A stretch of 64,000 bases of DNA from Fuerstiella sp. (GTDB lineage: Bacteria; Planctomycetota; Planctomycetia; Planctomycetales; Planctomycetaceae). Location of the stretch: contig JALHMY010000010.1 of the NCBI GenBank assembly GCA_022843805.1, positions 1 through 64,000 on the forward strand, read 5' to 3'. Position 1 is the first letter of the stretch. Each line of letters opens with the position of its first letter. The notes beneath the pieces were generated by a model. That model saw only the letters and a list, made by a program, of their open reading frames with translations. It made no database searches and was not told the DNA's origin. Shown piece after piece: positions 16,464 to 43,672 of this stretch. A program made the translations under genes and the position numbers.

Positions 16464-16496
16464 CGTATGGTTTCATCTGCAGAAGTAAAGAACGGA

Positions 16497-18620
16497 TTAC
16501 TTGCCTTTCGGCTGAACCTGAGCCTGGGGCTGAGCCTGAAGGAGCTCGAGGTAATCCGTGGTGATATTCACCAGTTCACGGTTGTAGAAGTCATTCTTGA
16601 AGATGTCTTCCTTGCTGTCCGCGTTGCCTGCCTTTTTGATGACTTCTTCTTCTTCCTTCTGTTCCTGCTTTATGGCTTCTTCTTCCGCTTTCATGACGTT
16701 TTCATTAAGAGGAACGGTCTTGTCATTCTTGCGTTCCAGATAACGAGCGATCAGGCGGTTGATTCGTCCAAAATCTTTGTCTGCGGCCACTCGAGCTTCG
16801 CTGTTTCTTGCCAGAGTGGCAACCATGGCATCATTGACAAGCGAGGCAAATGGAGCGTAGCTTGCTCGGGTAATGCGATCGAAAGCGAGTGCATTTTCAA
16901 GTGAATCTTCGCCAATGTCACGATGATTCAGCAGTGACGGCAGCACGATGTCGGAAAGAACGCCCTTCGTCTGAGTACTGTCACCATTGACTCGATAGAA
17001 CTTGCTGATCGTCAGTTTCAGTGCTCCGCGTTCCTTAGCGAACAGTGAGCTGAGTCGACCGGCAGCAACATTCTCGACGTTTTGAACCGTTCCCTTGCCA
17101 TGAGTGGTCGCATCACCGACAACGATACCGCGGCGGTAATCCTTCATCGCTCCGGCGAAGATCTCTGATGCGGATGCAGACAGGCGATTGCAAACGACAA
17201 CTATGGGTTTACGCCAATACATTTCCTGATCTTCGTCTTCATAAGGAGTCACAGCATTCTCTGGTTCCTTAACCTGAACGACCGGACCTTTCGGGATGAA
17301 CAGTCCTGACACTTCAATTGCTTCCAGAAGTGCACCGCCGCCATTCCATCGAAGGTCAATAATCAGAATATCGACATTCTGCTGGCGGAATATTTCGAGC
17401 TGCTTTTTGACATCCCGACTGGTGCTCTTGAAATCACCACCAACAGAAGCCCCGCGAAAGTCGCGATAAAATGATGGGATGTTCAGGATACCGACTTTGG
17501 CTCTTTTGCCTTCAATCCATTCAGAAGACTCAATGACCTTGCCTTTGACTTCATCGTCTTCAATCTTGACAGTCGAACGGGTCAGTTCGATTTCTTCAAT
17601 GCTTCCCGATTCCTTCAGCAGCTGCAGCTTGACTTTGGTACCCTCAGGTCCGCGGATTTTGTCGACCACTTTGGTCAGTTTCATTTCGACCACATCAACA
17701 AAGGGACTAACGGCATCGGCGGAAACTCCGATGATCTTGTCACCCTTTATCAGACGCCCATCTGCTGCTGCGGCACCGCCATCAATGACATCTTCGACTA
17801 CGGTATAGCCTTCATCATACTTCAGACGGGCGCCAATGCCTTCCAGCTTCAGTTCCATCTGGATACGGAAGTCATTCAGAGTCTTGGGAGACATGTAGCT
17901 GGAGTGCGGGTCAAGGCAATGCGTCATGGAAGACAGATAAAGCTCCAGAATCTCATGAGGCTCTGTCTGTTCCATGAAAATTCGATTGGTGTGATATCGT
18001 TTATGCAGGCGTTTACGAGCTTCTGACAGGTCGTTTTTGGCCGTTTCACCTGGCTTCAGTTCCGATGTGTCCATTTTCAGCAGAAGGAGGTCGTACTTAA
18101 TTCGTTTTCGCCAGCGTTCGTCCAGTTCTGCCTCGTTCTCTGCCCAGGCGACTTCTTTGGGATCCCGAATCATCGTTTCGTCAACGGTAAAGTCATGTTC
18201 GGCATCGATCTGAGCGCCGATTTTTTCTTCCCGCTGAGCCATACGGGTTTGAAAGCGTTCGAACACCTGATTGGCAAAGTCGATATTCCCGGCGAGAATC
18301 TGATCATCCAGTGAGGTCTTTTGTTTTTCGAATTCGTCAATGTCTGACTTTAAAAAATAGACCTTCTGGGAGTCCCAGGTTTCGATGAATCGAGTCAGCA
18401 GTTTGGCCGAGAGGGTATCATCAATCGGAGGATGATTAATATGACGGGCCGACACCATGGTGGCAACCAGTTGAGCAGTTTTGCCATCATCTTCCGTCAG
18501 TACGGCTTTATTTTTTGCCGCTTCCTGAGCAAATGCATTCTGAGCAAACACCGTTCCGGCTGCCAGTAGCAATGCCGCCAAAGCGAACGAAGATTTGCCG
18601 GAAATCAGCTTTGCTTTCAT
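16497..18620 (-). CDS. Tail-specific (C-terminal processing) protease, Prc/Tsp type, S41
   Basis: Periplasmic serine/lysine protease that degrades or trims proteins from the C-terminus. A signal peptide is visible (basic start, hydrophobic core, AFAQ cut region). The 707 residues have the Prc layout: helical N-terminal domain to about 230, PDZ domain at about 245-330 (LIKGDKIIGVSADAVSP), S41 core at about 360-560 with catalytic Ser in SASASEIFAGA (about residue 480) and Lys in HGKGTVQ (about 506), and a Glu/Lys-rich C-terminal DUF3340-like tail. Start: ATGs at 18629, 18626 and 18620. GGAAGGG ends 10 nt before 18620 and abuts the first two, so 18620 is chosen. Expected partners are adaptor lipoproteins, none seen nearby. 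Confidence 0.93.
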   Translation of the reverse strand: MKAKLISGKSSFALAALLLAAGTVFAQNAFAQEAAKNKAVLTEDDGKTAQLVATMVSARHINHPPIDDTLSAKLLTRFIETWDSQKVYFLKSDIDEFEKQKTSLDDQILAGNIDFANQVFERFQTRMAQREEKIGAQIDAEHDFTVDETMIRDPKEVAWAENEAELDERWRKRIKYDLLLLKMDTSELKPGETAKNDLSEARKRLHKRYHTNRIFMEQTEPHEILELYLSSMTHCLDPHSSYMSPKTLNDFRIQMELKLEGIGARLKYDEGYTVVEDVIDGGAAAADGRLIKGDKIIGVSADAVSPFVDVVEMKLTKVVDKIRGPEGTKVKLQLLKESGSIEEIELTRSTVKIEDDEVKGKVIESSEWIEGKRAKVGILNIPSFYRDFRGASVGGDFKSTSRDVKKQLEIFRQQNVDILIIDLRWNGGGALLEAIEVSGLFIPKGPVVQVKEPENAVTPYEDEDQEMYWRKPIVVVCNRLSASASEIFAGAMKDYRRGIVVGDATTHGKGTVQNVENVAAGRLSSLFAKERGALKLTISKFYRVNGDSTQTKGVLSDIVLPSLLNHRDIGEDSLENALAFDRITRASYAPFASLVNDAMVATLARNSEARVAADKDFGRINRLIARYLERKNDKTVPLNENVMKAEEEAIKQEQKEEEEVIKKAGNADSKEDIFKNDFYNRELVNITTDYLELLQAQPQAQVQPKGK

Positions 18621-18971
18621 GCCCATCATTCCCTTCCACAGAGATTCGCTGAAACATCAACAGGAAAATGGCTGACTGCGAAACAGGTCCGCCAACCGTC
18701 TATCCTAGACCACCCGTTATATCCAGGGCAAGACGACTCAACCGTAATAATGCTTGAAAATTCCGATCCCCGGTACATTGGAGCCTGGAAACTTCAGGGA
18801 TTTTGCGTTTCCCTGATTCAAATCCGCACGGCGTCCCAACTTCACCGGAGTCCAGGATTCATGGAAACCCGGCATCGCAGCCAGGATTCGTTTTACTTTT
18901 GTTGACAGTTGCCTTGCAAAGGTCAAGCCGGAATGGCATTGTCAAAAAATTGTTTTCGCTGGCGGGGAAAT
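18621..18971. other. Intergenic gap
   Basis: Apart from the protease ribosome-binding site nothing was recognised: no repeat of the families seen elsewhere, no strong hairpin, no credible frame. Confidence 0.5.
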
Positions 18972-20318
18972 TCAACGGGGCAATGGGAGGGCCGGCCGAA
19001 CTGGCCGCAAAGTCAACGTGCGAAGAATCCGTTCGGCTGCGTCGCCAAATGTCGCCTCATCCGATTTGGCATGGGAAAAAATGATGTGAAACTGCTCGCC
19101 TCCCGAATGTGTACAAAGATAGTAGTCCCAGAGAATTGTTTTTGCTGTAGTTTCACTGATCGCACGCACAAGGTGAAAACGCCAGCCGTTTTGTTCGGGA
19201 ATGACCTTCGTATCTGCGATTACGGCCTGTCGCGTCGCCAGCGCCATCTGAACTTCATCGCGAAATTTTGCATCCGGAGTAAATTCACCCGGCGGAAGTT
19301 TGGCGGCGGGGATGATATTACACTGACCGATCAGACTTCCGTTGTGCAGCATTCGCAGCATCACCAGCTGGGAAGTCTCGTGGAAAAGATGCCACTCCCG
19401 GCCGTGCAGCAGCAACAGTCGCCATGGCGTAGGCAGGGTTAGCAGAAGACTGCTTTCCGCTGGCAGTGTTTCCGGAAGTTCATCCGGAAGATCTGCCTCC
19501 TGGGCAAGTGGAGCCTGTGACCACTGAACGTCGGCTGTGACGTCAAGCCCGGGACTGACGGTCCCTGGTGAACGTTTCTCCCGGAGTGTACTTTTCAGCG
19601 ACGTGATGACACGGGTCATTCGATTCACGGTGAGCTGACCATCCAGCGACACACTGGACGCTGAACCATTGACCGCGCCTTCGGCTTTTCCATCGAATCG
19701 AATGATGGCTGTGGAATCTGTCAGTTCGGCGAGATGGCAGGTAACGGACTGACTCACCGCAGCCTCCATACCGACCAGCCGGGGAACGACCCAGCTCTCA
19801 GCATTCCATTTTTCATCGTTCGAGCCAAGTGTTCGGGCTGGCAGCAATCCTGCGGCCACCAGCGGATCGAAAGGCAGCTGAAGCAAATCAACCTGTTGAC
19901 GTGAAAGGTGGACATCAGTGCTGAGATGCATCAAAGTTGTATCGGTACCATACACCTGCAGCAGGCGATGTGACTGCGGCAGCTGAACCTTTGTTCGATG
20001 ATCAGGCCCCACCAGCGTATCAACCGCTGCGGTTTGAAACCTTCGATAAGCTCGAAGAGAAAAAGGTCCCGTCAGCTGAGATCGAAACTGTCGCTGATCA
20101 AAGTCGAATTCCGCATCGGACGACACTTTCAGCTCGGTGGTTCCATCATCTGCCGGAGTGATGATTTTTCCTCGAATCGCCACGGTATAGTGAATTTTGG
20201 CTGTGCGATCATCAGCAATTGCTGCATGCAGATCAACGTCGGCCGCGGCTGCGGTCTGAATGCCGGCCAGATTGTTGCCAGCGAGCGGGCCGCTGAAAAA
20301 CCAGGTCAGAAGCAGCAT
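18972..20318 (-). CDS. Secreted protein of unknown function
   Basis: Not recognised. From ATG 20318 (AGGG six nt upstream) the product has 448 residues and opens with a clear signal peptide (MLLLTWFFSGPLAG, then an Ala-rich cut region). The mature part is rich in beta-type alternation and Thr/Ser, has no cysteine cluster, no repeat and no other membrane segment. A middle stretch (GKAEGAVNGSASSVSLDG, then LTVNRMTRVITSLKSTLREK) resembles the strand pattern of lipid-carrier-like barrels, but this is weak. The frame is open to 20468; the longer start lacks a ribosome-binding site. It follows the mnmG region divergently and precedes the protease gene on the same strand. Confidence 0.7.
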   Translation of the reverse strand: MLLLTWFFSGPLAGNNLAGIQTAAAADVDLHAAIADDRTAKIHYTVAIRGKIITPADDGTTELKVSSDAEFDFDQRQFRSQLTGPFSLRAYRRFQTAAVDTLVGPDHRTKVQLPQSHRLLQVYGTDTTLMHLSTDVHLSRQQVDLLQLPFDPLVAAGLLPARTLGSNDEKWNAESWVVPRLVGMEAAVSQSVTCHLAELTDSTAIIRFDGKAEGAVNGSASSVSLDGQLTVNRMTRVITSLKSTLREKRSPGTVSPGLDVTADVQWSQAPLAQEADLPDELPETLPAESSLLLTLPTPWRLLLLHGREWHLFHETSQLVMLRMLHNGSLIGQCNIIPAAKLPPGEFTPDAKFRDEVQMALATRQAVIADTKVIPEQNGWRFHLVRAISETTAKTILWDYYLCTHSGGEQFHIIFSHAKSDEATFGDAAERILRTLTLRPVRPALPLPR

Positions 20319-29349: not shown

Positions 29350-29552
29350 GACCTGACGTCGATTCAAAGTCCGGAAGAGTTCTGGAGACTGGTCTTAAGT
29401 GGCCTCTGATTGCTCAGACTCAGCATGACAGGTGCTGGAACAGGGACCGTGCAGGCAAGTGAAATCTGCCGGTCCTTTTATGACAGCGCCGAGTGTGCTA
29501 CTGTGCTGCGACGTTTTGCGAAGTCAAAAAGTCAGTAGTGCAGAGGTATCGA

Positions 29553-30350
29553 GTGAGCGGACTTGACGAACAGCCGGAAGTTCTGGAGTTATGGCTGCAG
29601 GCGGCGGCTGAAGCAGCTCGGATTGGCGGCCGCATATTGCAGGAATGGATGGGGCGATTTTCCGTCAGGGAAAAGAGCCGGGCGAATCTGGTGACCGAAG
29701 CGGATGAGGCGTCACAAGCCGCGATTGTCAGTTACCTGTCAGGCCGATTTCCCGATTACGGATTCCTTGGCGAAGAGAATCTGAGTCAGCGTCGAACACC
29801 ACAGGACGCGTTCTGGATCATTGATCCTCTGGACGGTACGACAAACTACGTTCATGGATTCCCTTACTACGCAGTATCCATTGCGCTGTATTGGCAGGAG
29901 AAGCTCCAGGTTGGCGTGATTTTTGATCCAACTCGGGATGAAATGTTTTCTGCGTCCGCCGGGCGCGGCGCATTTCTGAATGGACAGCGTCTGACAACCA
30001 GTGGTGAGACGGAAGTTGGTCGGGCAATGGCGATGGCCAGCCTGCCGATTGCTCCGGATCCCGAGAATCCGGCGGTGCAGCGATTTCTCAGAGCCCTTCC
30101 AAAGATGCAGGCCGTTCAGCGAACCGGTTCAGCGGCTCTGAATCTGGCCTATGTGGCGGCGGGAAGGATTGATGCGTTCTGGTCGACAAGTCTGCACGCC
30201 TGGGACGTGGCTGCCGGTGTGATCCTGATCCAGGAAGCCGGCGGAACTGTTACAGGCCTTGCAGGCGAACCAGTCGACATTTTCCGTTCAAGTGTGCTGG
30301 GCGCCAGCAGTCATCCCCTTCATCGCGATCTCTGTCGCCTTTTGGGCTGA
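29553..30350 (+). CDS. Inositol-1-monophosphatase family protein (SuhB-like)
   Basis: Classic IMPase: GEENLS at about residue 75, the signature IIDPLDGTTNYVHGFPYY at about 90, and the C-terminal WDVAAGVILIQEAGG. All metal ligands are visible. From GTG 29553 the protein has 265 residues, the usual size; AGAGG lies seven nt upstream, which is why I prefer it to the upstream in-frame GTGs at 29493 and 29538. The substrate may be myo-inositol phosphate or a nucleotide/fructose phosphate. It is the second IMPase-fold gene in the window and the closer of the two to canonical SuhB. Confidence 0.9.
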   Translation: MSGLDEQPEVLELWLQAAAEAARIGGRILQEWMGRFSVREKSRANLVTEADEASQAAIVSYLSGRFPDYGFLGEENLSQRRTPQDAFWIIDPLDGTTNYVHGFPYYAVSIALYWQEKLQVGVIFDPTRDEMFSASAGRGAFLNGQRLTTSGETEVGRAMAMASLPIAPDPENPAVQRFLRALPKMQAVQRTGSAALNLAYVAAGRIDAFWSTSLHAWDVAAGVILIQEAGGTVTGLAGEPVDIFRSSVLGASSHPLHRDLCRLLG

Positions 30351-30443: not shown

Positions 30444-33400
30444 TTGAGTGTGGGGCGTCAAAGGACACAAAACAAAGCGGTTGCCGCAAGGTATCTGCTG
30501 CTGCTGTTAATGGTTGCCTTTCCTGCTGGCGATGCCGTGCCAGCATTGGCACAGCTGGCGCCCGCGTTACAGGATTCAACTCGCAGAAGTGAGCCTGTTC
30601 CAGGCAGTAATGTCGTTAACGGAGTCTCCGCAAATGGCGGCAGACCGGTCGCTCAGACGAGCGATGGAAATGCTCAGACCGGAAATGCTGAGACCGGAGA
30701 AGGTGAGCTTTTGCTGCGGACGGGCAATGGTGAGCTCGTTCCTTTAGGCGACTTGCTGGGAGTTGATTATCGCAGTGTGGTTGATGAGATGCTGAAGCGA
30801 GTGCAGCAGCAGCTGAGTGTGCCGTCGTGGAGATTTTCCCGACTGGAACTGACGGGCGAGGTATCTCGGGATGTGCTGACGCTGGCTGCCGAACTGACGA
30901 TCAGTGTGGAACGTGATCATGAATGGGTGACGGTACCGGTTGCATTCAGTGATCTGCATATTGACGATATCGCTCATGAGGCGGATTCAGAGCATGGTCG
31001 GGCGATTCCGGAGACGTCCGATCCGACGAAGAAGCGATGGCATCTTTATGGGGCGGGAATTCATCGGATTCGGCTGAAACTGATCGGGAAAACGCGGCCT
31101 CAGTCCACAGTTGGTCATTCTCTGAACCTCGATCTTCCCAGTGCAACGATTTCACATGCCATGATTCGATTCATGGCTCCGGTGGAATTGAAACTTCCTC
31201 CTGAAACGGTTCAGAAGATCACGCAGTCAGATACGGGAGCAACGGCAGTTGAGTTTTGGGGGCTTACTCCCAGCTTCAGTATGAGCTGGGTGGAAGTTGT
31301 GCCTCAGGTAACCCGAAAACCGGTGATCCAGGTTCAGAACAACCGCATGAAGCTGGACCTGAATTCGATTCCGGTCACCCTTTCCGGAACTCAGGCAGTT
31401 CAGATCAGCGGCAGCCCCGTCAATGAACTGACGATCCTGTTCCCGGCAGGTTTTCAGCTGCTGGAGGTGACTGCTTTGAATCAGGCGGATGATTCAGTGC
31501 TGAGTGGTTTTGAGGTGACGTCGGTTCCAACCGGATCGAGTGCGGTTATTCGACTGTCGGGGCCGATGGAAGGAATCCTGAAGCTGAATTTTGAGCTTGA
31601 GCTTGTCAATCGAACGTTTCCGCAGGACATCGTGTTCCGAATCCCGGTAGTGCGTGACGCTAATGTTCAGTCCGGGGATCTGGATATTGGAATTCCTCCC
31701 GGGTTGCTGATGCAGACTCGCATTGAAGGCGCACAGCGCAAACGAGTTGCGTCGGAGACGGATATCAATGTCCAGGCGACGGCATTTCGGCTGCGTTCTG
31801 TGGATTCCGTAGTCGTGCTTCACGTTGAGGAAATTCAGGCGCAGTATGCGGTGTCACCGGAAATGGTGTTTGAACCGGATGCGGAGAACGTGCTGATGAC
31901 AGTGCGGTTTCCGGTAAATGTCCTTACCGGTTCATTGCTGGATTTGAAAGTGAAGTGGCCCGGTTTCAGCGGAGGCAGCTGGCAGATGCTGCCAGGAACA
32001 ACTCTTTTGATTTCAGACAAGCAGAGTCTGCCATTGTCACAGGAACAGGATGCTCAGACGCCGGACTCCTTTAAGCTGACATTTCCGGAGCGTCAGTCGG
32101 GACAGTTTCGCGTGGAGTTTAAAGCATTCGCACCCATAACATCGCTGCGTCCTGCGGGAGCAGCGTTGATTTGCCCGAGTGTTGAATCGCGTGAAAGTGA
32201 ACCGATCATTGTGACGACGATCGAATCCGATACCTATTCACTGCAGCCGATCAACGCGGAAACTTCGCGGCCTTTGCAAACGGCCCCGTTTCAGAGTGCA
32301 GCGATTGCCGAGGCGGCATCACGAAACCGAAATGCTCAGGCATGGCTGCACAATCAGCCGGAGGAACCACTGAGCCTGGATTTGATTCGGCAGGCACCTT
32401 CCGTAACGACGGCGATGGTTGTCGGTCTGATTCCGCGGGAGGCGGGAATTGAAGTTCACGAAGACATTACGTTTCAGATTGAGCATAGTGAATTGTCCGC
32501 GCTGGGCTTTATCGTTCCAGAGGGTGTGCAGCCTTCGGTTTCGATGGCTGGCGAAACGGAACGGCTGCGGGCTACCATGGATTCAACGACCAGCTGGAGT
32601 TTCCGGCTCCCGACGTCCCGGAGGGGCACGGTACGGGTCTCAGTTGATTATCTCTGGCAGGTCGACCGGAAAGACACTGACGACGATCTGACTCTGGAAC
32701 TGCCTTTGGTGCTTCCTCAGCCGCAAACCTCGGAAATGACTCGCTGCGAAGTTGGCACCAGTGTCACTTCCGGGCTGCGAGTGAAGGATGAACAGAACTG
32801 GAGTCCAGTTTTCTCTGATCGGTTTGAGGCGGCATGGCTTATCGAAGGCCCTGCGTCGTCAGTTCCGGTGCGATGGCAGAGGTCCGTTTCTCTGAATTCG
32901 GGCGGTTCACCCATTTTTCTGATTAGTCGTACAAGACTGACGGTTTCGGAAGTCTCTACGACCACAGTGGCGGTTTTTGAGAACGGCGGAAAGCAGTTCA
33001 GTTTCGTTTTGCCTGAAAACGTGAAGCCGGTATCGATTCTGGTGAATGGTCGAACATTGAAGGATACCGGAGGAAAGATTTATCGGGCTGCGGCTGGGCC
33101 ATTTGTGCGATGGCAGGTATCACTGGGAGACAGCGATGCGAAGTCGTCTGCTCCTGCGGTGATCCCGGTGTCCGGTGGTGTCGTGCAGAATACGTCCCCG
33201 GCCGAGTCAGATCCTTCCGGTCTGGCAGTGATCGTGGAAATTCAGTGCCGTGAGAGAATTGAACGAACATCTTCACTTTTTGAACGAGCTGTTTTTCATC
33301 GACCTGTCTTTGAACAGACAGGGTTGCCGGCGCCTTCGATCTGGATGTTCGAATCACAGAATGAATTTCGAACGATCAGTCGCAGCCGGGTGCAGACATC

Positions 33401-33980
33401 TTTGTCGGGTGTGCAGCAGTTGTGGATGTCGGCTGGCTCGCGGGCATCGGAGATAGAGTCAAAGGTGGCCGCTATATTAACGCCTTACCCGGCATCGCTG
33501 CAGTCGCGGCTGCGAGATAAGATCGATGACTGGACATCGATCGAGCACCGTCAGGATCTTTTCTTTTCAATGAGTGACGCCGGACCATTGTCGGTTTATC
33601 TGATTCCTGGTGTCTCGCTGCTGCTTGTGAGTGCCGGAGTTTGTGCTGCATTCTTTGGAGTTATGTGTCTGCTTCGACTGCCATCACTGGCTGTCCCTTT
33701 GCTGTTCATTGTTGCTGCGGTTCCAGCCATGTATCTGGTAATACCGGAGTGGACGATACTGTTAAGCCCGTATGCCGGCGTGGGTATCGTTTTGGGAATA
33801 GTTTCCCTGACTTTTCAGAGGATGGGAACGGTTCGACTGCGGTTTCCGGGACGCGGACGTGCCGGGGAAATGCTGACGATTTTTGGATATACCGGATTTT
33901 TGTCGGGGACATCGTCAGTGGTGCAGTCTGACGCGGATGGTCCTGCTGTTACAGAGTCATCAGCCCTGTCAGCTCGATAA
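30444..33980 (+). CDS. Giant exported membrane-anchored protein, unit A
   Basis: Not recognised as a named family. About 1,178 residues from TTG 30444 (GTG 30450 would shorten it by two). A signal peptide is visible (ARYLLLLLMVAFPAG, then ALAQ). The bulk (about 60-1040) has the even spacing of a long beta-rich extracytoplasmic protein, with few cysteines. A recurring sub-pattern G-x-x-[FV]-x-[LIF]-x-LP-x-x-[VI]-x-P near residue 850 (GGKQFSFVLPENVKP) recurs in the next protein. Three to four hydrophobic helices follow at about 1048-1123, then a short charged tail. It lies 64 bp upstream of an even larger relative and is followed on the same strand by an ABC-2 transporter. No catalytic motif was found. 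Confidence 0.85.
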   Translation: MSVGRQRTQNKAVAARYLLLLLMVAFPAGDAVPALAQLAPALQDSTRRSEPVPGSNVVNGVSANGGRPVAQTSDGNAQTGNAETGEGELLLRTGNGELVPLGDLLGVDYRSVVDEMLKRVQQQLSVPSWRFSRLELTGEVSRDVLTLAAELTISVERDHEWVTVPVAFSDLHIDDIAHEADSEHGRAIPETSDPTKKRWHLYGAGIHRIRLKLIGKTRPQSTVGHSLNLDLPSATISHAMIRFMAPVELKLPPETVQKITQSDTGATAVEFWGLTPSFSMSWVEVVPQVTRKPVIQVQNNRMKLDLNSIPVTLSGTQAVQISGSPVNELTILFPAGFQLLEVTALNQADDSVLSGFEVTSVPTGSSAVIRLSGPMEGILKLNFELELVNRTFPQDIVFRIPVVRDANVQSGDLDIGIPPGLLMQTRIEGAQRKRVASETDINVQATAFRLRSVDSVVVLHVEEIQAQYAVSPEMVFEPDAENVLMTVRFPVNVLTGSLLDLKVKWPGFSGGSWQMLPGTTLLISDKQSLPLSQEQDAQTPDSFKLTFPERQSGQFRVEFKAFAPITSLRPAGAALICPSVESRESEPIIVTTIESDTYSLQPINAETSRPLQTAPFQSAAIAEAASRNRNAQAWLHNQPEEPLSLDLIRQAPSVTTAMVVGLIPREAGIEVHEDITFQIEHSELSALGFIVPEGVQPSVSMAGETERLRATMDSTTSWSFRLPTSRRGTVRVSVDYLWQVDRKDTDDDLTLELPLVLPQPQTSEMTRCEVGTSVTSGLRVKDEQNWSPVFSDRFEAAWLIEGPASSVPVRWQRSVSLNSGGSPIFLISRTRLTVSEVSTTTVAVFENGGKQFSFVLPENVKPVSILVNGRTLKDTGGKIYRAAAGPFVRWQVSLGDSDAKSSAPAVIPVSGGVVQNTSPAESDPSGLAVIVEIQCRERIERTSSLFERAVFHRPVFEQTGLPAPSIWMFESQNEFRTISRSRVQTSLSGVQQLWMSAGSRASEIESKVAAILTPYPASLQSRLRDKIDDWTSIEHRQDLFFSMSDAGPLSVYLIPGVSLLLVSAGVCAAFFGVMCLLRLPSLAVPLLFIVAAVPAMYLVIPEWTILLSPYAGVGIVLGIVSLTFQRMGTVRLRFPGRGRAGEMLTIFGYTGFLSGTSSVVQSDADGPAVTESSALSAR

Positions 33981-34044
33981 AGCCCTGCACCGCATTGAGT
34001 TTCAGACTGCTGAGAGTGCGAATCACTCGCCGCCCGGAAAATTC

Positions 34045-37000
34045 ATGTACGCTGCCCTCTTAATACTGTCGACATTTTTTCAGACATCTGTTGTTCAGAC
34101 GTCGGCTGGCGAAAACCTTCCGGCTTCCGGCGGCCAGATGGTCGTTCCCGCACGTCTTATGGAAGGCGTGCCCGCAGGAGACAGTGCTTCACGTCTGCAG
34201 GTTAGAGAAGTCGACCTTGACCAGCTTCGATCTCTGCTGACTCCGGGCAGTTACATTCCAATGCCATACGACTTGCTCGGATCACTTGCAGAGGCAGTGG
34301 AACAGGACCCACTCCCTGCCGGTGTATCCGATCCTCCTCGTATTCGCCACGTTCGTTATCAGGCCGTTCTGGTTGAAAATCGGTTGCAGGATGGCAGCCT
34401 GGAAATGGATCTGGAATCTCAGAATGTTACTCGGCAAAGCGAACCGCTGCTACTGGGTCGTACCAGTCTTCAGCAGCTTCGGATTTTGGATGGCGACGGA
34501 GAAGCAACCATTGGGGCGGATCGACAGCGACGATTATTTCTGCTCAATCCGGATACAGCTCGCAGGTGGAAAGGCACATGGTCTGCAGAAGGCATGGTGA
34601 CGGGTGACTTTGTAACGTTTCGCCTGGATTTGCCTCCGGCGATAACAAGCCAGTTCACTGTGGTTACACCGGCACTCGTTCAGGTCAGCAGTTCGAATGG
34701 GCTGGTTCTGAGCCCACAGCAGGAAGGTGAACTGCTGCGGTGGAGAATTTTTCCAAATGTGGCCAGTCGCGTGACGCTGACCTGTCGAACTCGCCGTATT
34801 GCTGCCGCTGGCACCGTCTTTTCACTTGCGGATGTCTCTTCGGTACATGCGGTGGCCGGTGATTCACTGTCGTCTCGCTGGACGATGAGTCTGCCCGCTG
34901 AGTTGCAGGGACGAAACGTATTCGTGGTTGACGTTCCCACAACAGCACGAATTATTGATGTTCTGATGAATGAGAACCAGCCGCTGGAATGGTCTTCCGC
35001 GCAGCATGGTGATGTTCAGCAGCTGCGCCTCGTACTGCCACCGGTATCAAGTCCGACCGCTATTTCGATTCTTGCCGTATCCGTCTGGCCGCAGTCCGAC
35101 GTACTTTCCATACCAATTCTGACGCCGCGTACATGGGAACGTCGTGGTACACCGGACTCGGGACCAATTCTTTTGCCGGCGTCACAGATACGTCTGACGG
35201 TTCCTCCGGGAATTGATCTGGATGGATGGACGCTGAAGGGAATTCAGGAACGTGATGTGATCGCAGGGCCGGATAATTCACGGACTTTTCAGCTGGTACG
35301 GTACGGTCCCGATGCTTCCGCTGAGGCTCGTTTTTCCACCAGTCAGGCGCGTCTGCTGAGCTCCATTGTGACAGTACTGGACGCTTCAGGAAGACTTGCG
35401 AATGCTCGTTGTTTTATCAGTGTTCGATGTGAGGAATCGGCAGTCGTTGAGCTTGCCTGGCCGGTATCTGCCGGATGGGACGTGATCGCTGCCCGATATA
35501 CGTCGAGTGGTCGGTCGCTGTTTTTCGAGTTTTCGGAATCGGATTCGGTTCAGGGTGAAGCAAAATTGCTGGTTCATCTGCCAGAAACTCTTGAACCTCA
35601 GTCAAGTCGCATCATCGATATTCAGTTCCAGCAGTCAGAATGGCCGCAGGGAACACGTGCGCGACTGCCACTGCGACTGACCCCGGCACCCGCTGAACCC
35701 GCACAGCGTGAATTACTGATCGTTTCTCCGGGAGCCCAGCAGTCTTCAACCTCCGGCAGACTGTGGCGCAATCGCGGACGTGTACTCCCGCAGGAAACCG
35801 TGAAGCAGCAGTATCCATGGATTCCGGAGATGATTTCCCTTGCAAACAGCGTGGTTTATGAATTGTCCCCTGATGAGAATTTGGGAAGTGAGGGTGGCGA
35901 AGAGTCGAATTTGGAGTCGTCTGACGAGTTCGATGAGCAGACCTCCGGCCCTGTTGTGACCTATCAGGCCAGCAGGGAAAAGGAGATCGTTCGTGAATCT
36001 GCCGTATTCGTGATTCCCGCGAGGAATATCACCAGCGAAGTGCTGGAATTTCAAATCGGAACTGAGAATTCGACAGACAGCGATTCCCTTTCGACTGAGG
36101 TCATGGCCGGTCTGATGAAGTGGACCGTCAATAGTCAGCCTGTCATTGCCACTCGCATCGAGTCTCAGCCACAGAATCCTGACGTACAGCGATGGGTGAT
36201 TCCCATCACACGGCTTCCGGATCCGGATTCGGATGTCACGATCTCGTTTGAAACGCAGCGGTCAACAGGGGAGTCGTTTCTGGCCATGCTGCCGTTCCCC
36301 CAGGGAGCGGGCGTGCCGACCGGACATCTGGAGCTTGTTCAGCCGTCCGTCGGCGCTATGGTGGTCGACGGCCTTACCGAAATGTCGCCGTCTCGCGGGG
36401 ATGGCTCCGCGAGCACCGGTCAAAGTCGCTATTTTCGTCTCCCCGAAGCTCCCGCAGATCTGAGAATCCGAATTGAGCGAATCCAGACACTGAGACAGGG
36501 GGAAGTCATTGATACTCATGTGTTTCATCTGATCGAAGACCGAGATACGACGATTGTGCATGATGTGATGGCGATTGCCCGCCTTCGTCGACCCGGAAAT
36601 CGGGTAACCATTCCTCTGTCACTTCCCAAAGATGTTCAGCCCGTGGCATTTGTTGATGGAAGTCGGGTTCAGTTAATCAGCAGTGCGGACCAGTTGTTGC
36701 TGCCGCTTCCCACAAAACAGGACGAATGTCATGTGATCCTGCTTTGGAGACAGGAGATTGGAAAACATTCGCTGATGACGACGGAAGTGCCGCTGTCGAC
36801 ACTTTTTCAGCCTGAGAATCAGGCCGAACAAAGCACTCACCATCTTTTGGTTGCTTCTGACCTGGAGCTGCTGAGTCCGGGGGTCACGTGGGCGGCCACT
36901 GTTCATGTGGATGCTATGGAGATGCTGCCGGAGAATCGATCCTACACAGCTCCGCTGGTCAGTACGGAAGGATCGACGATGATGACCGTAATGACCGCCC

Positions 37001-40000
37001 CTCGAGGTTTTCTTGCCCGCTGGGAACTGGCATCTTCAACCGGCTGGCAGCATAGAACACTGGCCACCTCCAGTCTCGAAGCGACGACAATCAGTGTGCG
37101 AGTCAGTTCGCTCAGCATTCGGCGAGCACTTCAGTATGCTGCCATCCTGGTATCGCTGACAGCCTGCAGCGTGCTGTTACCGCTGATCACCCGATTTCGA
37201 CGACCGCTGGCCGTCTTTCTGCTGCTTCTGGCTGGCAGTCGTCTGCTTATTTCATCAGTTGCTGCTGATGCTCTCATCTGCGGGACATTCTGGGGGCTCT
37301 GTGGAGGTTTCATTCTGTCATTTGTCTTTTGTTGGCGTCCGCTTCCCCGGCCATCGCTGAAACCGGTTTCGGCCATCGTCGTCAGTAGCCTGCTGATGTT
37401 TTCGTCGGCGGTCAGCGGCCAGGAAAAAACGGCTCAGCCAGTCAATCGGTCGGAGCCTTTGTCCGTGACCTCCTTCAAACCGCAGGCTTCCGATGGTACT
37501 CCTGAGATACCGCAGGTACTGGTCCTGAAAAACGGAGACCTCAAACCGGACCTGATTCATGTTCATGACAGTCTTTACAGGAAGTGGAAATCGCTTCAGC
37601 AAAACGTTTCATCAAGTCCTCAGGTGGTTGTGACCAGACAAAGTGTGCGCATCAGGGCGGACTCCATCGCTTCGGTCGAGGCAGAGTTGCTGATGGATGT
37701 TGCTGTAGCCACAAGTGATCGGACAAGCGTTCTGGAAATTCCATTGAATGGAACCCGCCTGGTGGAATGTTCAATTGATGGGGAGGTGGTGCTGCCGATC
37801 GCGGGCGACAATGATTCTGTACTCATCCCGATTCCGGGGGTTGTGCTTGTTCCGTTTCATAAACTGAGTGTCGATGAAGGAACTGACTTGCCGATGACAG
37901 CCGGTATCATGGAGCCGGGACCATCACTGAGCTGGGATATCCATAAAATCGAGTGTCGGCTTCGACCACTGGTTGTCCGACAGGCGAATGCCATGCAGTT
38001 TCGGCTGCCGGCTTTGCCATGCCCGTCAACAACTCTTTCTGTGGACAGCGAGAGTTCGTTTGTCAGACGAGCGTTTGTCAGAACGGGTTCCGGAGTTTTA
38101 CAGTGGTCTCCTTCGGATGGACTCGTACCGCTGAGCAGTATTCAGCTGGCAGATGGGCTGGAAGTACGACTGTTTTCGGATGAACAGCAGCCTGAGCCTG
38201 GCAATATCCCCGGAATTCAGGTGCTCGCATTGTGTGAAATGTCGTCCGGTCAGCAACTCCTGACGTGTGTTTGTCAGTTTAGTCAATGGAATCCTCTGGT
38301 TCACAATATCCGCATCCGGATACCGGAGGGATATCGGCTGATTACCGTATCGAGCAGCAGTGTGGCCGAATTATTCTGGTCAGTGCGCGATGGGACAGCC
38401 GACCTGCAGCTGAATGATCTGAACACAGACAGCTTTGAAGTTGAAATGAAACTGCTTTGCGAAGCACCGGTGGAACCTCAGCAACATCGGGTAAAAATGG
38501 CAGAACTTGGCCTCGTCGCCGGTTGTCGTCGATCTGAAAATGCGTGGGTGGCTGTCCGAACGACGCCGGAGTTTTCCATCCAGCCAGTGGGCAATGATGT
38601 TCGATCCGGGATCCCTGCTTCAGAAGTGCCCGCTGTTTTCGCCGGGTGGCTCCGTCGATCGGATGCCGTGTTTCTGGTTCCGTCGAATTCTCCTGAGCTT
38701 ACGTTGCACCTGGTACCAAGGACGTCGTACAGCGAAGTCCGGGTGGCTACGGCCGTGGAGTGTGAAGAGGGCTGGATAGACTGGACTTACACGGCAGACA
38801 TCGAAACGGCCGTTTTGAATCGGTTTCGCCATCAGATGATTGTTGATCCTTCCATTGAGATAACCGATGTTCAGGTGTTTGCGGGTGAAGCGAATCGCCT
38901 GGACAAGCGATATCGACGAGGTGATCGGCTGACGATTTTGCTGAAGGAAGGGACAATCGGTTTGTATCGTCTGATTGTCCGCGGACGTCAGATGATCCCT
39001 CAGGATGAGTCCGAAATTCGATTGCGCTGCCCACAGCTGCCGGACGTGCAGATTCTGGAGTCGTCGCTGACGATCGTTGATAACAGTCAGTCGGGATTCA
39101 TACTTGCCGATACAGGCAAGGCGGTGCCGGACCGGCGTCTGCCGCCTAATCAGATTCTGACTCCCGGACTATCCATGCGTTTCCAGATAATTGACGAAGA
39201 AGATCCGATTGTGCTGCAGCGCAGAAGCCTTTCGGCGAGAGATGCATCACTTGCCGTGATTCGCCATGAGGATCGCGCGATGGTGCTTCTGCAGATTCAC
39301 GATTTTCCGGCAGCTGCCGATGCTGACAGGATGCTGTTCTCTTCGGATGTCGTTTTCCTGGAACCACCCCGTATCCTGCTGAATGGGCAGCAGAGAAACA
39401 CAGTTCGTACTGGAAATGAGTTTCGCTGGATTGAAGCGGAGTCGCCCGAAAACGGCACGCTGCTGACGGCGTGCTGGACAGTTCCGCTGAGAGCCGACAT
39501 GGTGGACAGTGAAAACCAGCTTGTCCCCCTGCCCCGATTTTCCTTCGATCTGAAATGGAAGCAATCCGTTGTATCGGAGACTCTGTCGCTCTCTGAAGAA
39601 ACAGATCAGAGCTCTCAGGAGGCCTTGAAGTCGTTCTCGCCTCTGACTGAGCCGGATGTTCCTGCCCCATCCGAAAGCGGTCGTACGGCCGGCCGTTTCG
39701 AATGGGTTTCAAAAGCGCTGGAGAAGCTGGAAATCGAAGATGTGCCATCCAGCGTCTCGTGGCGTTCAATGGAGTTGTCGCCAGCCTCGGGACCGGCGAA
39801 TGCGGTTCTTCCGGGGGCTCTTCCCGAGCCCGTCCCGGAGCCCGCCGCGCGATCTACCCCTGTGATCGTTGCCGATACAATGCTTCTGGTTTCACCACAC
39901 CAGTCGGCTGTCGCGGAGACAACATTGTTCGTGTTTGCACCTCAGGCTGGCACGCGCGTCACGTTGCAGATTCCCAGAGAAACAATTGTGACGCATGTGG

Positions 40001-40830
40001 AGACCGACCGACCAGTTCGATGGGACACCGCAAGTCGGAATCGTCTTACGCTTGATCCAAAAGAGCCGATGACAACGATACGCCTGCGTTGGCTCAGTGA
40101 ACGCGCCACCGGGTCCATGTTTGTGACAAAGCTTAAATTCTCTCCCCCTCTGCCTGACAGTCCTGGACTGCACCATCTGATCACAGTGCGGGCTGCCGAT
40201 GGTGGCGCCTCTTATCTGCAGAGGCCCTCAGCAAGTATGAACCGTGAAAAATTTCGCCAGAGGCTGTTTGAATGCCTGCAGGAAGGGTTTCGGCAACTGT
40301 CGGCAAGTAAGGTGAATGGAGAGCTTTCTGAACTCGTGAACATTGACGACTCTTCCGGGAAAACACTCAATACGTCCGGGGATCCCGATGCCAGTCATCT
40401 TGTGGAGGAACGCGTGCAGGAAATTATGAATCGCCTTTCACAGTCCCATCAGAGTTTCCTTGTGTCGGCCCGGCCGGAAGCAGCGAAGGATGAAGATTCT
40501 GCCGAGGGTCTTGCTTCCGGACCCGGAACGTGGCGAATATATGCCGGTCCGTTCAGTTCCGCGGCCGCGGAAACAGTATCTGCTGATGTATCCGGGGCTG
40601 TATCAGTGATGATTCGTCGGATTCCGCCATTTTCTACAGTGCTGGCCAGTGTTGTCGCGATCGCGATCGCCCTTGTCTCGTTTGTCGGCAGAAATGAATC
40701 CGGTTCCCTGACTGACATCTCTGAGCCTGCAGTAGCTGAAGATCTTAGCGGCAGTGCTCTGTCCGCCACACGAGTGCAGTCTCAGGAGCAGCTGGCCTCG
40801 AATTCTGCCTCAGGTGATTCCCGGCAATAG
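34045..40830 (+). CDS. Giant exported protein, two fused units (B and C)
   Basis: About 2,261 residues. The frame opens at 33883 inside the previous gene, but ATG 34045 starts a signal peptide (MYAALLILSTFFQ) with GGAAAA three nt upstream and is preferred. Unit B (about 20-1020) is beta-rich and carries GNRVTIPLSLPKDVQPVAF at about 850. A cluster of four hydrophobic segments lies at about 1028-1122, the last ending in VVSSLLMFSSAVSGQ, which resembles an internal signal peptide. Unit C follows (about 1125-2190) with AGTRVTLQIPRETIVTHV at about 1968 and a final helix at about 2195-2214 (STVLASVVAIAIALVSFVG). The motif and the layout match unit A, so the protein looks like two A-type proteins joined. 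No enzyme signature was seen. Confidence 0.85.
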   Translation: MYAALLILSTFFQTSVVQTSAGENLPASGGQMVVPARLMEGVPAGDSASRLQVREVDLDQLRSLLTPGSYIPMPYDLLGSLAEAVEQDPLPAGVSDPPRIRHVRYQAVLVENRLQDGSLEMDLESQNVTRQSEPLLLGRTSLQQLRILDGDGEATIGADRQRRLFLLNPDTARRWKGTWSAEGMVTGDFVTFRLDLPPAITSQFTVVTPALVQVSSSNGLVLSPQQEGELLRWRIFPNVASRVTLTCRTRRIAAAGTVFSLADVSSVHAVAGDSLSSRWTMSLPAELQGRNVFVVDVPTTARIIDVLMNENQPLEWSSAQHGDVQQLRLVLPPVSSPTAISILAVSVWPQSDVLSIPILTPRTWERRGTPDSGPILLPASQIRLTVPPGIDLDGWTLKGIQERDVIAGPDNSRTFQLVRYGPDASAEARFSTSQARLLSSIVTVLDASGRLANARCFISVRCEESAVVELAWPVSAGWDVIAARYTSSGRSLFFEFSESDSVQGEAKLLVHLPETLEPQSSRIIDIQFQQSEWPQGTRARLPLRLTPAPAEPAQRELLIVSPGAQQSSTSGRLWRNRGRVLPQETVKQQYPWIPEMISLANSVVYELSPDENLGSEGGEESNLESSDEFDEQTSGPVVTYQASREKEIVRESAVFVIPARNITSEVLEFQIGTENSTDSDSLSTEVMAGLMKWTVNSQPVIATRIESQPQNPDVQRWVIPITRLPDPDSDVTISFETQRSTGESFLAMLPFPQGAGVPTGHLELVQPSVGAMVVDGLTEMSPSRGDGSASTGQSRYFRLPEAPADLRIRIERIQTLRQGEVIDTHVFHLIEDRDTTIVHDVMAIARLRRPGNRVTIPLSLPKDVQPVAFVDGSRVQLISSADQLLLPLPTKQDECHVILLWRQEIGKHSLMTTEVPLSTLFQPENQAEQSTHHLLVASDLELLSPGVTWAATVHVDAMEMLPENRSYTAPLVSTEGSTMMTVMTAPRGFLARWELASSTGWQHRTLATSSLEATTISVRVSSLSIRRALQYAAILVSLTACSVLLPLITRFRRPLAVFLLLLAGSRLLISSVAADALICGTFWGLCGGFILSFVFCWRPLPRPSLKPVSAIVVSSLLMFSSAVSGQEKTAQPVNRSEPLSVTSFKPQASDGTPEIPQVLVLKNGDLKPDLIHVHDSLYRKWKSLQQNVSSSPQVVVTRQSVRIRADSIASVEAELLMDVAVATSDRTSVLEIPLNGTRLVECSIDGEVVLPIAGDNDSVLIPIPGVVLVPFHKLSVDEGTDLPMTAGIMEPGPSLSWDIHKIECRLRPLVVRQANAMQFRLPALPCPSTTLSVDSESSFVRRAFVRTGSGVLQWSPSDGLVPLSSIQLADGLEVRLFSDEQQPEPGNIPGIQVLALCEMSSGQQLLTCVCQFSQWNPLVHNIRIRIPEGYRLITVSSSSVAELFWSVRDGTADLQLNDLNTDSFEVEMKLLCEAPVEPQQHRVKMAELGLVAGCRRSENAWVAVRTTPEFSIQPVGNDVRSGIPASEVPAVFAGWLRRSDAVFLVPSNSPELTLHLVPRTSYSEVRVATAVECEEGWIDWTYTADIETAVLNRFRHQMIVDPSIEITDVQVFAGEANRLDKRYRRGDRLTILLKEGTIGLYRLIVRGRQMIPQDESEIRLRCPQLPDVQILESSLTIVDNSQSGFILADTGKAVPDRRLPPNQILTPGLSMRFQIIDEEDPIVLQRRSLSARDASLAVIRHEDRAMVLLQIHDFPAAADADRMLFSSDVVFLEPPRILLNGQQRNTVRTGNEFRWIEAESPENGTLLTACWTVPLRADMVDSENQLVPLPRFSFDLKWKQSVVSETLSLSEETDQSSQEALKSFSPLTEPDVPAPSESGRTAGRFEWVSKALEKLEIEDVPSSVSWRSMELSPASGPANAVLPGALPEPVPEPAARSTPVIVADTMLLVSPHQSAVAETTLFVFAPQAGTRVTLQIPRETIVTHVETDRPVRWDTASRNRLTLDPKEPMTTIRLRWLSERATGSMFVTKLKFSPPLPDSPGLHHLITVRAADGGASYLQRPSASMNREKFRQRLFECLQEGFRQLSASKVNGELSELVNIDDSSGKTLNTSGDPDASHLVEERVQEIMNRLSQSHQSFLVSARPEAAKDEDSAEGLASGPGTWRIYAGPFSSAAAETVSADVSGAVSVMIRRIPPFSTVLASVVAIAIALVSFVGRNESGSLTDISEPAVAEDLSGSALSATRVQSQEQLASNSASGDSRQ

Positions 40831-40957: not shown

Positions 40958-41860
40958 ATGTCAGTGATTTGTACAAAAAATCTGAGTCGCCAGTATGGCG
41001 GTCGACGGGGAATACAGGATGTTAATCTGCAAATCGGGGAGGGTGAGATTTTCGGTTTTCTCGGGCCGAATGGTGCGGGTAAAACGACGACAATCCGGCT
41101 CCTCCTTGGTTTCCTGAAACCCGGTTCAGGATCCGCTGCGATTTTTCAGCGGGATTGCTGGTCAGACAGTCCTGAGATTAAACAGTACACGGGCTATGTT
41201 CCCGGAGATGTGCGGCTTTACCCATGGCTCACGACTCGCAAGGCCCTTCGTATTGTCGGAAAGATCCGAAATCAGGACTTGATGCCGGAGGGTGGCCGTC
41301 TCGCTGAACGATTTCGACTTGAGCTCGATCTGCCTGTTCGAAAGATGTCCCGCGGCAATCGTCAAAAAGTTGCGATCGTACTGGCTCTGGCTCATCGCCC
41401 CCGTCTTGCCATTCTTGACGAGCCCACGTCCGGTCTGGATCCGTTAATGCAGGATACTTTGTGTCAGTGCCTGAGGGAAATGGCGAACGAAGGGCGGACG
41501 GTGGTTTTTTCCAGCCACACACTCAGTGAGGTGGAAAGTCTTTGTGATCGAGTCTGCATGATTCGCGACGGACGAATCGTTGTTGATGAAAGTCTCGAGT
41601 CACTGAAGAAGCGAGCGCCTCGGCAAATCTCTGTGATGCTTCCGGATTCCGCAGCCGCGGCTTCGATTTCGTGGCCTGACTTTATGAAGGTGAAACAAAT
41701 CCGCGGATCGTTTTGCCACCTGGAAATGGTTGGACCTTCACCCGATTTTCTTCGATGGGCAGCCACTCAGGATTTCAGAGATGTCACCATCGGACTTCCC
41801 AGCCTCGATGTGCTCTTCAGAGAGTTCTACGACCTGTCACCCTCTGCGGAGTCTGAATAG
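40958..41860 (+). CDS. ABC transporter ATP-binding protein (ABC-2 type)
   Basis: Nucleotide-binding subunit of an ABC-2 exporter, 300 residues. Walker A FLGPNGAGKTTTIRLL at about 33-48, signature RKMSRGNRQKVAIVLAL (SRGNR in place of SGGQ, as in many ABC-2 ATPases), Walker B RLAILDEPTSGLDPLM, and the switch histidine in VFSSHTLSEVE. The C-terminal ~90 residues are the usual variable dimerisation part. The permease gene starts at its last nucleotide, so the two are coupled. It is 127 bp downstream of the giant-protein gene on the same strand with no terminator seen between them, which suggests but does not prove a link. Confidence 0.95.
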   Translation: MSVICTKNLSRQYGGRRGIQDVNLQIGEGEIFGFLGPNGAGKTTTIRLLLGFLKPGSGSAAIFQRDCWSDSPEIKQYTGYVPGDVRLYPWLTTRKALRIVGKIRNQDLMPEGGRLAERFRLELDLPVRKMSRGNRQKVAIVLALAHRPRLAILDEPTSGLDPLMQDTLCQCLREMANEGRTVVFSSHTLSEVESLCDRVCMIRDGRIVVDESLESLKKRAPRQISVMLPDSAAAASISWPDFMKVKQIRGSFCHLEMVGPSPDFLRWAATQDFRDVTIGLPSLDVLFREFYDLSPSAESE

Positions 41861-42831
41861 TGCGAGGCCTGCTGACAAAAATCTTTGTTGAGGTACGGTG
41901 GCCTGTGCTGCTGTTTGGTCTGGGAATGTCTCTGATCATGGGACTCCTAACCATGCTGCTGCCCAAAGTTCTGGGGGACATTCATCGCCTCTTCGAACGT
42001 ATGTCATTCATCAAGCCGCTGATTACCGCCCTGCTTGGTGTGGATCCCGGCGAACGAATGACGGCGGGCATGTCACAGGCCTTTCTCTGGGTTCATCCAA
42101 CGGTCCTGACGCTGATGTGGGTACATGAAGTGATGTTCTGCACTCGAGTTCCCGCGGGTGAAGTGGATCGCGGCACAATTGACTTTCTGCTGAGCCTGCC
42201 GGTGTCCCGGTGGAAGGTTTTTATGGCTGAAACGATCGGCTGGCTTTGTTCCGGTCTGTTTATACTTGTCAGCGGGTTCAGCGGCCATCTGCTTGCTTCC
42301 GTTTTCGTCCGTCCGGAAATGCGGCCAGCAATGCTGACAACCTTTTATGTGATGACCAATCTGTTCGCTGTCTATCTGGCTGTGGGAGGATTTGCATTCC
42401 TCATTTCGGCCTGCAGTGACCGCCGCGGCAGAGCAACCGGTGTGGTCTTCGCTGTTCTGCTGGCATCGTTCTTACTCAATTTTCTTGCGCAGTTCTGGGA
42501 TCCGTTTACAGCCACGACTCCGACTTCCAGCGTGTTTCCCGGGATACCTGGTTCAGCAGATGCACTCCCTGAGGCGGCAGTGAATCCTCTGCCTGGGTTT
42601 ATGAGAGACGGTTTGGCTGATACGGCGAGTTCCTCAGGGCAGATCTCTGTTCCTCAGAAAACAGGATTCAGCCTGGCCACGATCAGTGTGATGGATTATT
42701 ACCGCCCGGCAATCATCATTCAGTCCGGAAAATTTCCGGCGGCAGATGTCGGACTCTTACTTGCCATTGCTGTCGTCACATGGACTCTTGCCGGCATCAT
42801 TTTCCGTCGCCGCAGCATCTGTACTGTATAG
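41860..42831 (+). CDS. ABC-2 type permease
   Basis: Membrane subunit of the exporter, 323 residues, GTG start overlapping the ATPase stop by 1 nt. About six hydrophobic segments: residues 15-37, 72-90, 115-140, 160-185, 195-215 and, after a periplasmic loop of about 75 residues (217-290, rich in Pro/Ser/Gly), 295-315. The stretch RGTIDFLLSLPVSRWKVF is the classic cytoplasmic coupling helix of ABC-2 permeases (DxxTxxxLLxxPxSR). Substrate unknown; polymer or lipid export, or a role in membrane insertion of the neighbouring giant proteins, are both open. Confidence 0.93.
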   Translation: MRGLLTKIFVEVRWPVLLFGLGMSLIMGLLTMLLPKVLGDIHRLFERMSFIKPLITALLGVDPGERMTAGMSQAFLWVHPTVLTLMWVHEVMFCTRVPAGEVDRGTIDFLLSLPVSRWKVFMAETIGWLCSGLFILVSGFSGHLLASVFVRPEMRPAMLTTFYVMTNLFAVYLAVGGFAFLISACSDRRGRATGVVFAVLLASFLLNFLAQFWDPFTATTPTSSVFPGIPGSADALPEAAVNPLPGFMRDGLADTASSSGQISVPQKTGFSLATISVMDYYRPAIIIQSGKFPAADVGLLLAIAVVTWTLAGIIFRRRSICTV

Positions 42832-43013: not shown

Positions 43014-43057
43014 GTCCATAATACCGCCAGAAAAATACATTTGGCGGTATTATGGAC
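43014..43057 (+). promoter_or_regulatory. Operator palindrome of the abiEi gene
   Basis: Perfect 16-bp inverted repeat (GTCCATAATACCGCCA at 43014-43029 and its complement at 43042-43057) with a 12-nt spacer. The right arm includes the ATG of the antitoxin gene at 43052 and its GGCGG ribosome-binding site. AbiEi proteins are known to autorepress by binding inverted repeats in their own promoter; here binding would also cover the translation start. Confidence 0.8.
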
Positions 43058-43672
43058 GACATTAAATCAGCTCAATCGGCTATCAGGCGTGCAGAATCTG
43101 TCTTCCAGCGGAAAGGCGGGCTGCTGCGCATGTCGGACGCAGTTCGGGCGGGAGTCCACCGCGATACGCTCCGAGTGATGGTTGAGCGAGGAGATCTGGA
43201 GAAACTCAGCCGAGGACTTTACCGTCTCATCGATTCACCAACGCCAATGTATCCGGATCTGGCGGCGGTTGCTGTCAAGGTTCCTGACGGGGTCATCTGT
43301 CTTATCTCAGCACTGGCCTACCACGAACTGACAACGCAGATTCCGCATGAGGTTTATCTGGCGATTGACCGCAACAGCGAGCCACCCCGAATGGACTTCC
43401 CGCCAGTCCGCACATTTCGGTTCAGCGGTACGGCTTTTGCGGAAGGAGTTGAGCGGCACAAAGTCAACTCAGTGACACTGCGAGTGTACTCGCGAGAAAA
43501 AACGATTGCCGACTGCTTCAAGTTCCGGAGCAAGGTGGGTCTCGACACGTGTGTTGAGGCACTGCGACGGTATCGGGAGTCGCGTGGATTCAATCCTGAT
43601 GTTCTGCTTCGATACGCTGCGATCTGTCGCGTGAAACAGGTGATGCGTCCGTACATTGAGGCCGTGTTATGA
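43052..43672 (+). CDS. AbiEi-type antitoxin/transcriptional autoregulator
   Basis: Antitoxin of a type IV AbiE system, which counters the nucleotidyltransferase toxin AbiEii and represses its operon. The 206 residues show the N-terminal winged-helix (GLLRMSDAVRAGVHRDTLRVM, ERGDLEKLSRGLYRL) and the C-terminal antitoxin domain with VPDGVICLISALAYHELTTQ, REKTIADCFKFRSKVGLD and ALRRYRESRGFNPDVLL, all matching the family. Its ATG lies inside the right arm of a perfect operator palindrome. The next gene overlaps it by ATGA, as in AbiE operons, but is only 23 codons long. It is therefore an orphan antitoxin, possibly kept as a regulator or as protection against incoming AbiEii. Confidence 0.9.
   Translation: MDDIKSAQSAIRRAESVFQRKGGLLRMSDAVRAGVHRDTLRVMVERGDLEKLSRGLYRLIDSPTPMYPDLAAVAVKVPDGVICLISALAYHELTTQIPHEVYLAIDRNSEPPRMDFPPVRTFRFSGTAFAEGVERHKVNSVTLRVYSREKTIADCFKFRSKVGLDTCVEALRRYRESRGFNPDVLLRYAAICRVKQVMRPYIEAVL

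Follow-up and report, generated by a model that had tools for sequence, protein, structure and literature searches.

The window, i.e., the whole 64-kb stretch of DNA that was analysed, comes from a genome of 172 contigs and 9.2 Mb in total, and carries two forward-strand genes, here called A and BC. Gene A encodes a single unit laid out as a signal peptide, a beta-rich periplasmic part of about 1000 residues, and three C-terminal membrane helices. BC is the longest open reading frame (ORF) within the window (33883–40830); an ATG at 34045 is the likely start, which gives a protein of 2261 residues holding two units, B and C. Judged by their predicted signal peptides and helices, A and BC both look secreted. 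A scan of Pfam and NCBIfam assigned neither protein of the window to a family above the curated cut-offs, and no description of an A/BC family was found in the portion of the literature covered by our searches. Planctomycetota are known for their unusual cell envelope, and the family is of interest as one that is conserved over much of this phylum with no Pfam or NCBIfam name found for it. The features are as follows, all on the forward strand (+).

29493–30350 (+): gene for a SuhB-like inositol monophosphatase, upstream of A (Pfam Inositol_P, 5.6e-65)
30444–33980 (+): gene A, 1178 codons from a TTG start, a single unit; 26 relatives in the family
30444–30551 (+): N-terminal signal peptide of A, predicted from sequence; ALA before Q37, hydrophobic core at aa 18–36
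30711–31319 (+): A domain 1, aa 90–292; collinear partners are B 67–230 and C 76–280
31341–31853 (+): A domain 2, repeated module, aa 300–470; HHalign probability 97.9 against domain 3 and 95.7 against domain 4
31839–32393 (+): A domain 3, repeated module, aa 466–650; lies within the ribophorin I match (466–819)
32367–32897 (+): A domain 4, repeated module, aa 642–818; best-predicted part of A, matching the M1 aminopeptidase N-domain
32985–33029 (+): motif of the sequence-only reading in A, GGKQFSFVLPENVKP, aa 848–862
33579–33809 (+): three membrane helices of A, aa 1046–1122; layout kept by relatives
34045–40830 (+): gene BC, 2261 aa, two units in a single reading frame
34045–37419 (+): B unit, BC aa 1–1125; aligned to A by HHalign; AlphaFold2 model with ribophorin I as best match
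36595–36642 (+): the same motif in B, GNRVTIPLSLPKDVQP
37135–37329 (+): three terminal membrane helices of B, BC aa 1031–1095, from hydrophobicity and the layout of relatives
37354–37419 (+): signal peptide inside BC with which C begins, SLKPVSAIVVSSLLMFSSAVSG; cleavage predicted at VSG/QEK, following BC aa 1125
37420–40830 (+): C unit, mature part, BC aa 1126–2261; aligned to A by HHalign
39946–39990 (+): the same motif in C, AGTRVTLQIPRETIV
40630–40686 (+): C-terminal membrane helix of C, BC aa 2196–2214

Relationship of units A, B and C

A reading of the DNA letters alone (the sequence-only reading) had taken A, B and C to be products of duplication followed by fusion of two copies, and pointed to a short segment near the end of each. 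The three quoted segments are present at 32985, 36595 and 39946, at most 3 nt from where they had been placed, and each is followed by hydrophobic helices, three in A, three in B and one in C. The pattern written for them, beginning G-x-x-[VF], matches literally in A, but B and C are only loose fits, and an F-x-L-x-L-P pattern claimed as common to the units is found a single time in BC and is absent from A. Taken by itself, the motif is weak evidence of kinship. Resemblance of A, B and C merely as beta-rich, proline-bearing proteins of separate ancestry would agree with a literal motif confined to A, and with the single-sequence BLASTP comparisons among the units of the window, in which nothing was significant (best E 0.21).

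The profile comparisons, a check that the sequence-only reading had itself proposed, oppose such a chance likeness. With profiles of A (26 proteins) and of BC (21 proteins), HHalign aligned A with B over 882 columns (probability 99.9, E 9e-33), A with C over 806 columns (probability 99.9, E 6e-32), and B with C over 468 columns confined to the first half, 68–565 (probability 99.4, E 3e-21). These values are far above those of the reversed templates (probability 0.2–3.1) and of 15 column shuffles (probability at most 0.1), and the motif prolines share one aligned column (A P857, B P861, and C P877 in C numbering). In the L116 locus of genome G114, three separate adjacent genes of 1128, 1237 and 1138 aa stand in a row, and BLASTP relates their products with 27% identity over 946 columns for A and B (2e-83), 23% over 946 columns for A and C (3e-70), and 27% over 928 columns for B and C (6e-62). 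Three separate unit genes are likewise found in G068 (L118), and in outer genomes the A profile directly matches genes of the B-like and C-like kinds. Accidental likeness among beta-rich proteins is ruled out by the HHalign controls and the L116 alignments, and with the aligned prolines, the A-profile matches and the tree described below also standing against it, we give it next to no weight. That A, B and C share ancestry along the greater part of their length, and that B and C are fused, we regard as practically certain. Because the units are unfused in L116 and L118 and the tree groups them by position, duplication appears to have come first, with BC as a fusion that may elsewhere have been split; the proposed duplication and fusion of two copies thus finds support in the profiles, the unfused loci and the tree. 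In the L116 genes, a hydrophobic strand ending in P looks like a counterpart of the motif, with a V-D-G or similar turn about 10 residues later in the BLASTP alignments.

A second level of repetition is nested inside the units. Domains 2, 3 and 4 of A are mutually related (HHalign probabilities 97.9, 95.7 and 95.3; 0.1–0.2 when shuffled), and domain 1 matches them weakly (probability 16–59), its kinship being doubtful. The partners of the A domains in B and C are collinear except for domain 4, whose best partner in B/C is the equivalent of domain 2. These matches show each A-type unit to hold at least three related predicted modules of about 170 aa each. The module seems to have been repeated within a unit first, and the whole unit to have been triplicated afterwards. 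Neither the nested repeats nor the internal signal peptide had been noticed in the sequence-only reading.

Distribution and gene arrangement

Searches with the single proteins matched A in 22 of 59 relatives and BC likewise in 22 of 59, the names of the relatives including Planctomycetaceae, Planctomicrobium and Schlesneria; by its profile, an A-like gene is present in 102 of the 294 Planctomycetota genomes sampled. The locus survey comprised 69 loci, 15 of them cut by the end of a contig or stretch and 54 uncut, with classes assigned by length only. At 36 of the 54 uncut loci, one gene with a single unit precedes one gene with two units. The others have three single genes (two loci), the series 1+2+1, 1+3 or 2+1 (one locus each), two single genes (five), one double gene (five) or one single gene (three). 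The single-gene loci L123 and L137 have an adjoining gene of more than 2100 aa, beyond the reach of the unit profiles, and the double-gene locus L062 begins near the edge of the stretch taken. A and BC adjoin, often with a 4-nt overlap, which speaks for coupling of the two genes. Some outer genomes have two units only, so that a strict trio is not universal.

A quick tree was built on 97 units, drawn from 32 loci that we chose among the 69; it has many long branches and its branching details are unsure. The A, B and C rows nevertheless group by position, with 6 label changes against 47.5 in shuffles. One clade unites the window with relatives from the same family and from two more families of the class, and a second holds the outer-phylum loci together with second copies. 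B and C are sisters in the clade of the window (SH-aLRT 90).

The genome of the window has a second, diverged A + BC copy, L107 (G000:C110:1-20000, positions 9032–20000), with products of 1344 aa and at least 2321 aa, which groups with the outer-phylum loci in the tree. Fourth units occur at L125 (1597–5457) and L144 (13164–16723), and nest with the B and the A of their own lineages, respectively; by this placement they are probable recent further duplications. At L056 (3458–9408, minus strand) the BC region consists of a 1418-aa ORF and a 565-aa ORF with a 4-nt overlap, and a Pfam search with the 565-aa protein gave no match. At L052 (7528–12384, minus strand) a gene for a PQQ/BamB-like beta-propeller stands after A in place of BC. 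Pfam matches to TgpA_N were seen in 2 of 26 A proteins.

The B/C junction

The three helices of B are followed by an extra hydrophobic stretch that ends AVSG, and then by QEK. Signal-peptidase-like sites were counted by a simple rule, a hydrophobic core after which [AVSGTLI]-x-[AG] comes no more than 13 residues on, with Q, E or D next. The rule was drawn up with the sequences already viewed and should not be taken for a trained predictor; by it, a site is present at the junction in 19 of 21 close-relative BC proteins, as compared with 15 of 132 other hydrophobic cores. At N-terminal signal peptides the same rule finds a site in 21 of 26 A and 12 of 21 B proteins. Among outer and paralogous fused ORFs, a set unused in setting the rule but with sequences viewed before the count, the junction has a site in 17 of 23; the count at other cores is 12 of 139. 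This set contains ORFs of 1750–3300 aa; the two-unit loci L133, L135, L136 and L146 were left out together with L132, as were L120 and L129 (ORF start far upstream), and L143, devoid of a helix cluster, was counted as a miss. Fisher tests gave 4e-13 and 2e-11, p values that overstate the effect since the relatives are not independent; several genomes supply two loci each, e.g., those of the window and L107. The unfused C gene of L116 has its own N-terminal signal peptide, VRA/EES. The counts show the fused BC to keep a predicted signal peptide with a signal-peptidase-I-like site between B and C.

Three readings of the junction can be weighed. Separate translation of C from an internal start codon would suit a unit that has its own signal peptide, like a separate gene, but an in-frame start with a ribosome site was found near the junction in 4 of 32 cases, which is the random rate (80 of 640 stretches), and none of the starts was ATG. 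These counts rule out a separate start codon for C, and the reading is very improbable. Since there is a signal peptide at the junction and no extra start codon, BC looks like a polyprotein. The helix preceding C could instead be an uncut signal anchor, so that BC stays one chain, a two-ectodomain membrane protein with four helices in its middle. Such an anchor would thread C outward without a cut too, and by the rule a strict site is missing from 2 of the 21 fused proteins in the first set and from 6 of the 23 in the second. Against this stands the strict small-x-small sequence before Q, E or D at the large majority of junctions in both sets and at few other cores; a never-cut anchor would have no reason to keep a cleavage site. 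We consider the uncut chain doubtful, and cleavage of a BC polyprotein into B and C by signal peptidase I quite probable from the pattern of conserved residues.

A comparable arrangement is that of FbcH of Bradyrhizobium, a cytochrome b/c1 precursor that is reportedly a bacterial polyprotein split by signal peptidase. In both cases a single reading frame encodes two exported membrane proteins with an internal signal peptide separating them. BC differs in that its halves are homologues of one another and of gene A upstream, it has no relation to cytochromes, and its cleavage is predicted. A literature search for split polyproteins of the FbcH type found nothing. A bacterial fusion with a conserved signal peptide in its interior would be a simple and testable case of two membrane proteins delivered in equal dose.

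Predicted fold and possible role

AlphaFold2 models of A and B were built separately from 7 and 6 sequences, respectively, and are of low confidence, with mean pLDDT of 49.9 for A and 47.6 for B and pTM of about 0.3; A 650–770 is better modelled, most of its ten-residue blocks having pLDDT 70–86. Comparison of predicted folds was another check named in the sequence-only reading, and in Foldseek the two models have the same best PDB match, ribophorin I/Ost1 (E 3.7e-9 for A and 1.3e-8 for B), with integrins and M1 aminopeptidases ranking below it in the lists for both. As A and B are without BLASTP similarity yet have the same best match, a common fold, and its kind, are supported. VIA-align superimposed A on ribophorin I with Z 13.5 over 323 residues and an rmsd of 21.6, to which domain orientation may contribute, and B with Z 14.1 over 316 residues and an rmsd of 8.1. 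The N-domain of M1 aminopeptidase was matched by A 652–812 (Z 11.7, rmsd 3.9, 155 residues) and by B 217–393 (Z 13.4, rmsd 3.3, 156 residues). As modelled, A and B thus resemble M1 aminopeptidases and LTA4 hydrolase in the N-terminal saddle-like beta domain of these enzymes; a search of A and BC for HExxH and GxMEN found neither, and in the absence of a catalytic motif M1 peptidase activity was rejected.

The likeness of the A and B models to ribophorin I is one of fold only. As modelled, A and B share with ribophorin I/Ost1 the tandem M1-N-like beta domains, and they too have a membrane anchor on the C-terminal side, but each unit has three or more modules where ribophorin I/Ost1 has two, the units form a homologous set of three, and sequence profiles do not match. 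The Ribophorin_I profile (PF04597) had no match in any of the 21 genomes searched with an E limit of 10, a Pfam search of 26 A proteins and 9 outer units returned no Ribophorin_I, and profile searches of the PDB for sequence relatives of the units gave none below E 0.049. With Ost1 as the best fold match of A and B, the units might be thought of as accessory subunits of a bacterial oligosaccharyltransferase, as Ost1 is in the ER. Ost1 serves STT3, however, and STT3 was not found in the genome of the window in a search of 294 Planctomycetota genomes. It is present in 17 of these, all outside the class of the window, and only G070 and G124 have both STT3 and A (17 and 102 genomes, respectively). 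Together with the Ribophorin_I result, this makes the oligosaccharyltransferase role hardly credible. A further likeness is that to chain T of 7w72, a human GPI transamidase, which we take to be PIG-T; Foldseek lists it for both models (E 1.9e-4 and 1e-3), but the match is weak, with TM-scores of 0.07–0.16. Bacteria are not known to have a GPI system.

What is new here is the conserved junction signal peptide in BC, and the ribophorin I/Ost1-like fold of the A and B models. A and BC belong to a real family that has no name and is widespread among Planctomycetota; its fold, judged from the low-confidence models, is of a kind already known, and its conserved layout as a probable polyprotein is unusual. 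We propose that early in Planctomycetota a single gene was tripled that encoded a beta-rich protein, exported and anchored in the membrane. B and C would be translated as one chain: B would cross the membrane, its closing three helices would bring its end to the cytoplasmic side, and the internal signal peptide of C would enter the export machinery anew. Signal peptidase I would then cut, and the cut would release B and C in equal numbers. Side by side, A, B and C could form a hetero-oligomeric scaffold on the periplasmic side of the inner membrane and may hold or present other envelope proteins. The building blocks of the scaffold would be domains arranged in tandem, with the fold of ribophorin I/Ost1 and of the M1-aminopeptidase N-domain but lacking catalytic residues. 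Triplication, a BC polyprotein and a periplasmic scaffold make the best overall explanation, to which we assign a probability of roughly 0.6. Taken separately, a role as three-subunit periplasmic scaffold is likely, and the odds that A, B and C join in one complex are about even.

If the fold assignment is true, it would bear on the origin of parts of the ER complexes. An earlier search found no prokaryotic relatives of Ost1 or of other non-catalytic subunits (PMC4973528), and tandem domains of the Ost1 kind in bacteria would then have been missed by it. We suggest only tentatively that the family is a widespread bacterial counterpart of the ER-lumen Ost1 and PIG-T, as a three-subunit M1-N-like scaffold that supplies two subunits via a polyprotein cut by signal peptidase and is wired to ECF/vWA genes in some lineages.

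Links to neighbouring genes depend on the lineage, and suggest a role in the envelope. The SuhB-like gene is at the same upstream place in 16 of 67 loci, a DegP-like protease-cluster gene is nearby in 8 loci, and a BacA/UppP gene is convergent downstream in 6. At six outer loci (L127, L128, L133, L135, L137 and L146), an ECF sigma gene, a gene for a vWA membrane protein and the units follow in this order, the first two directly upstream of the units. The vWA protein of these loci has one helix near residue 100–150 and a vWF_A/VWA/YfbK_C part beyond it, and an N-terminal zf-HC2 domain reaches E 0.01 in four of the six. A-B-C could on this basis be the receptor or effector of surface signalling in which an ECF sigma factor is paired with an anti-sigma protein that spans the membrane and has its vWA part outside. 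The arrangement is limited to 6 of 67 loci, however; the window and its close relatives have the SuhB-like gene in that place, other outer loci have unrelated neighbours, and we regard the signalling role as unlikely. An ABC-transporter pair lies downstream of BC at 40958–42831; among the loci compared, relatives of the pair are near the units only in L042 (G001), and it was rejected as a functional partner.

Other neighbours include a block of RcpC/CpaB-like and prepilin peptidase genes, of the Flp/Tad pilus type, near the units in four to five relatives (L042, L044, L054, L056 and L141). In the window, an AbiEi_4 antitoxin-like gene (PF13338, 3.4e-10) is located at 43052–43672, downstream of the ABC-transporter pair, and the A and B parts of a hydantoinase/oxoprolinase are fused in a 1351-aa protein encoded on the minus strand at 55706–59761.
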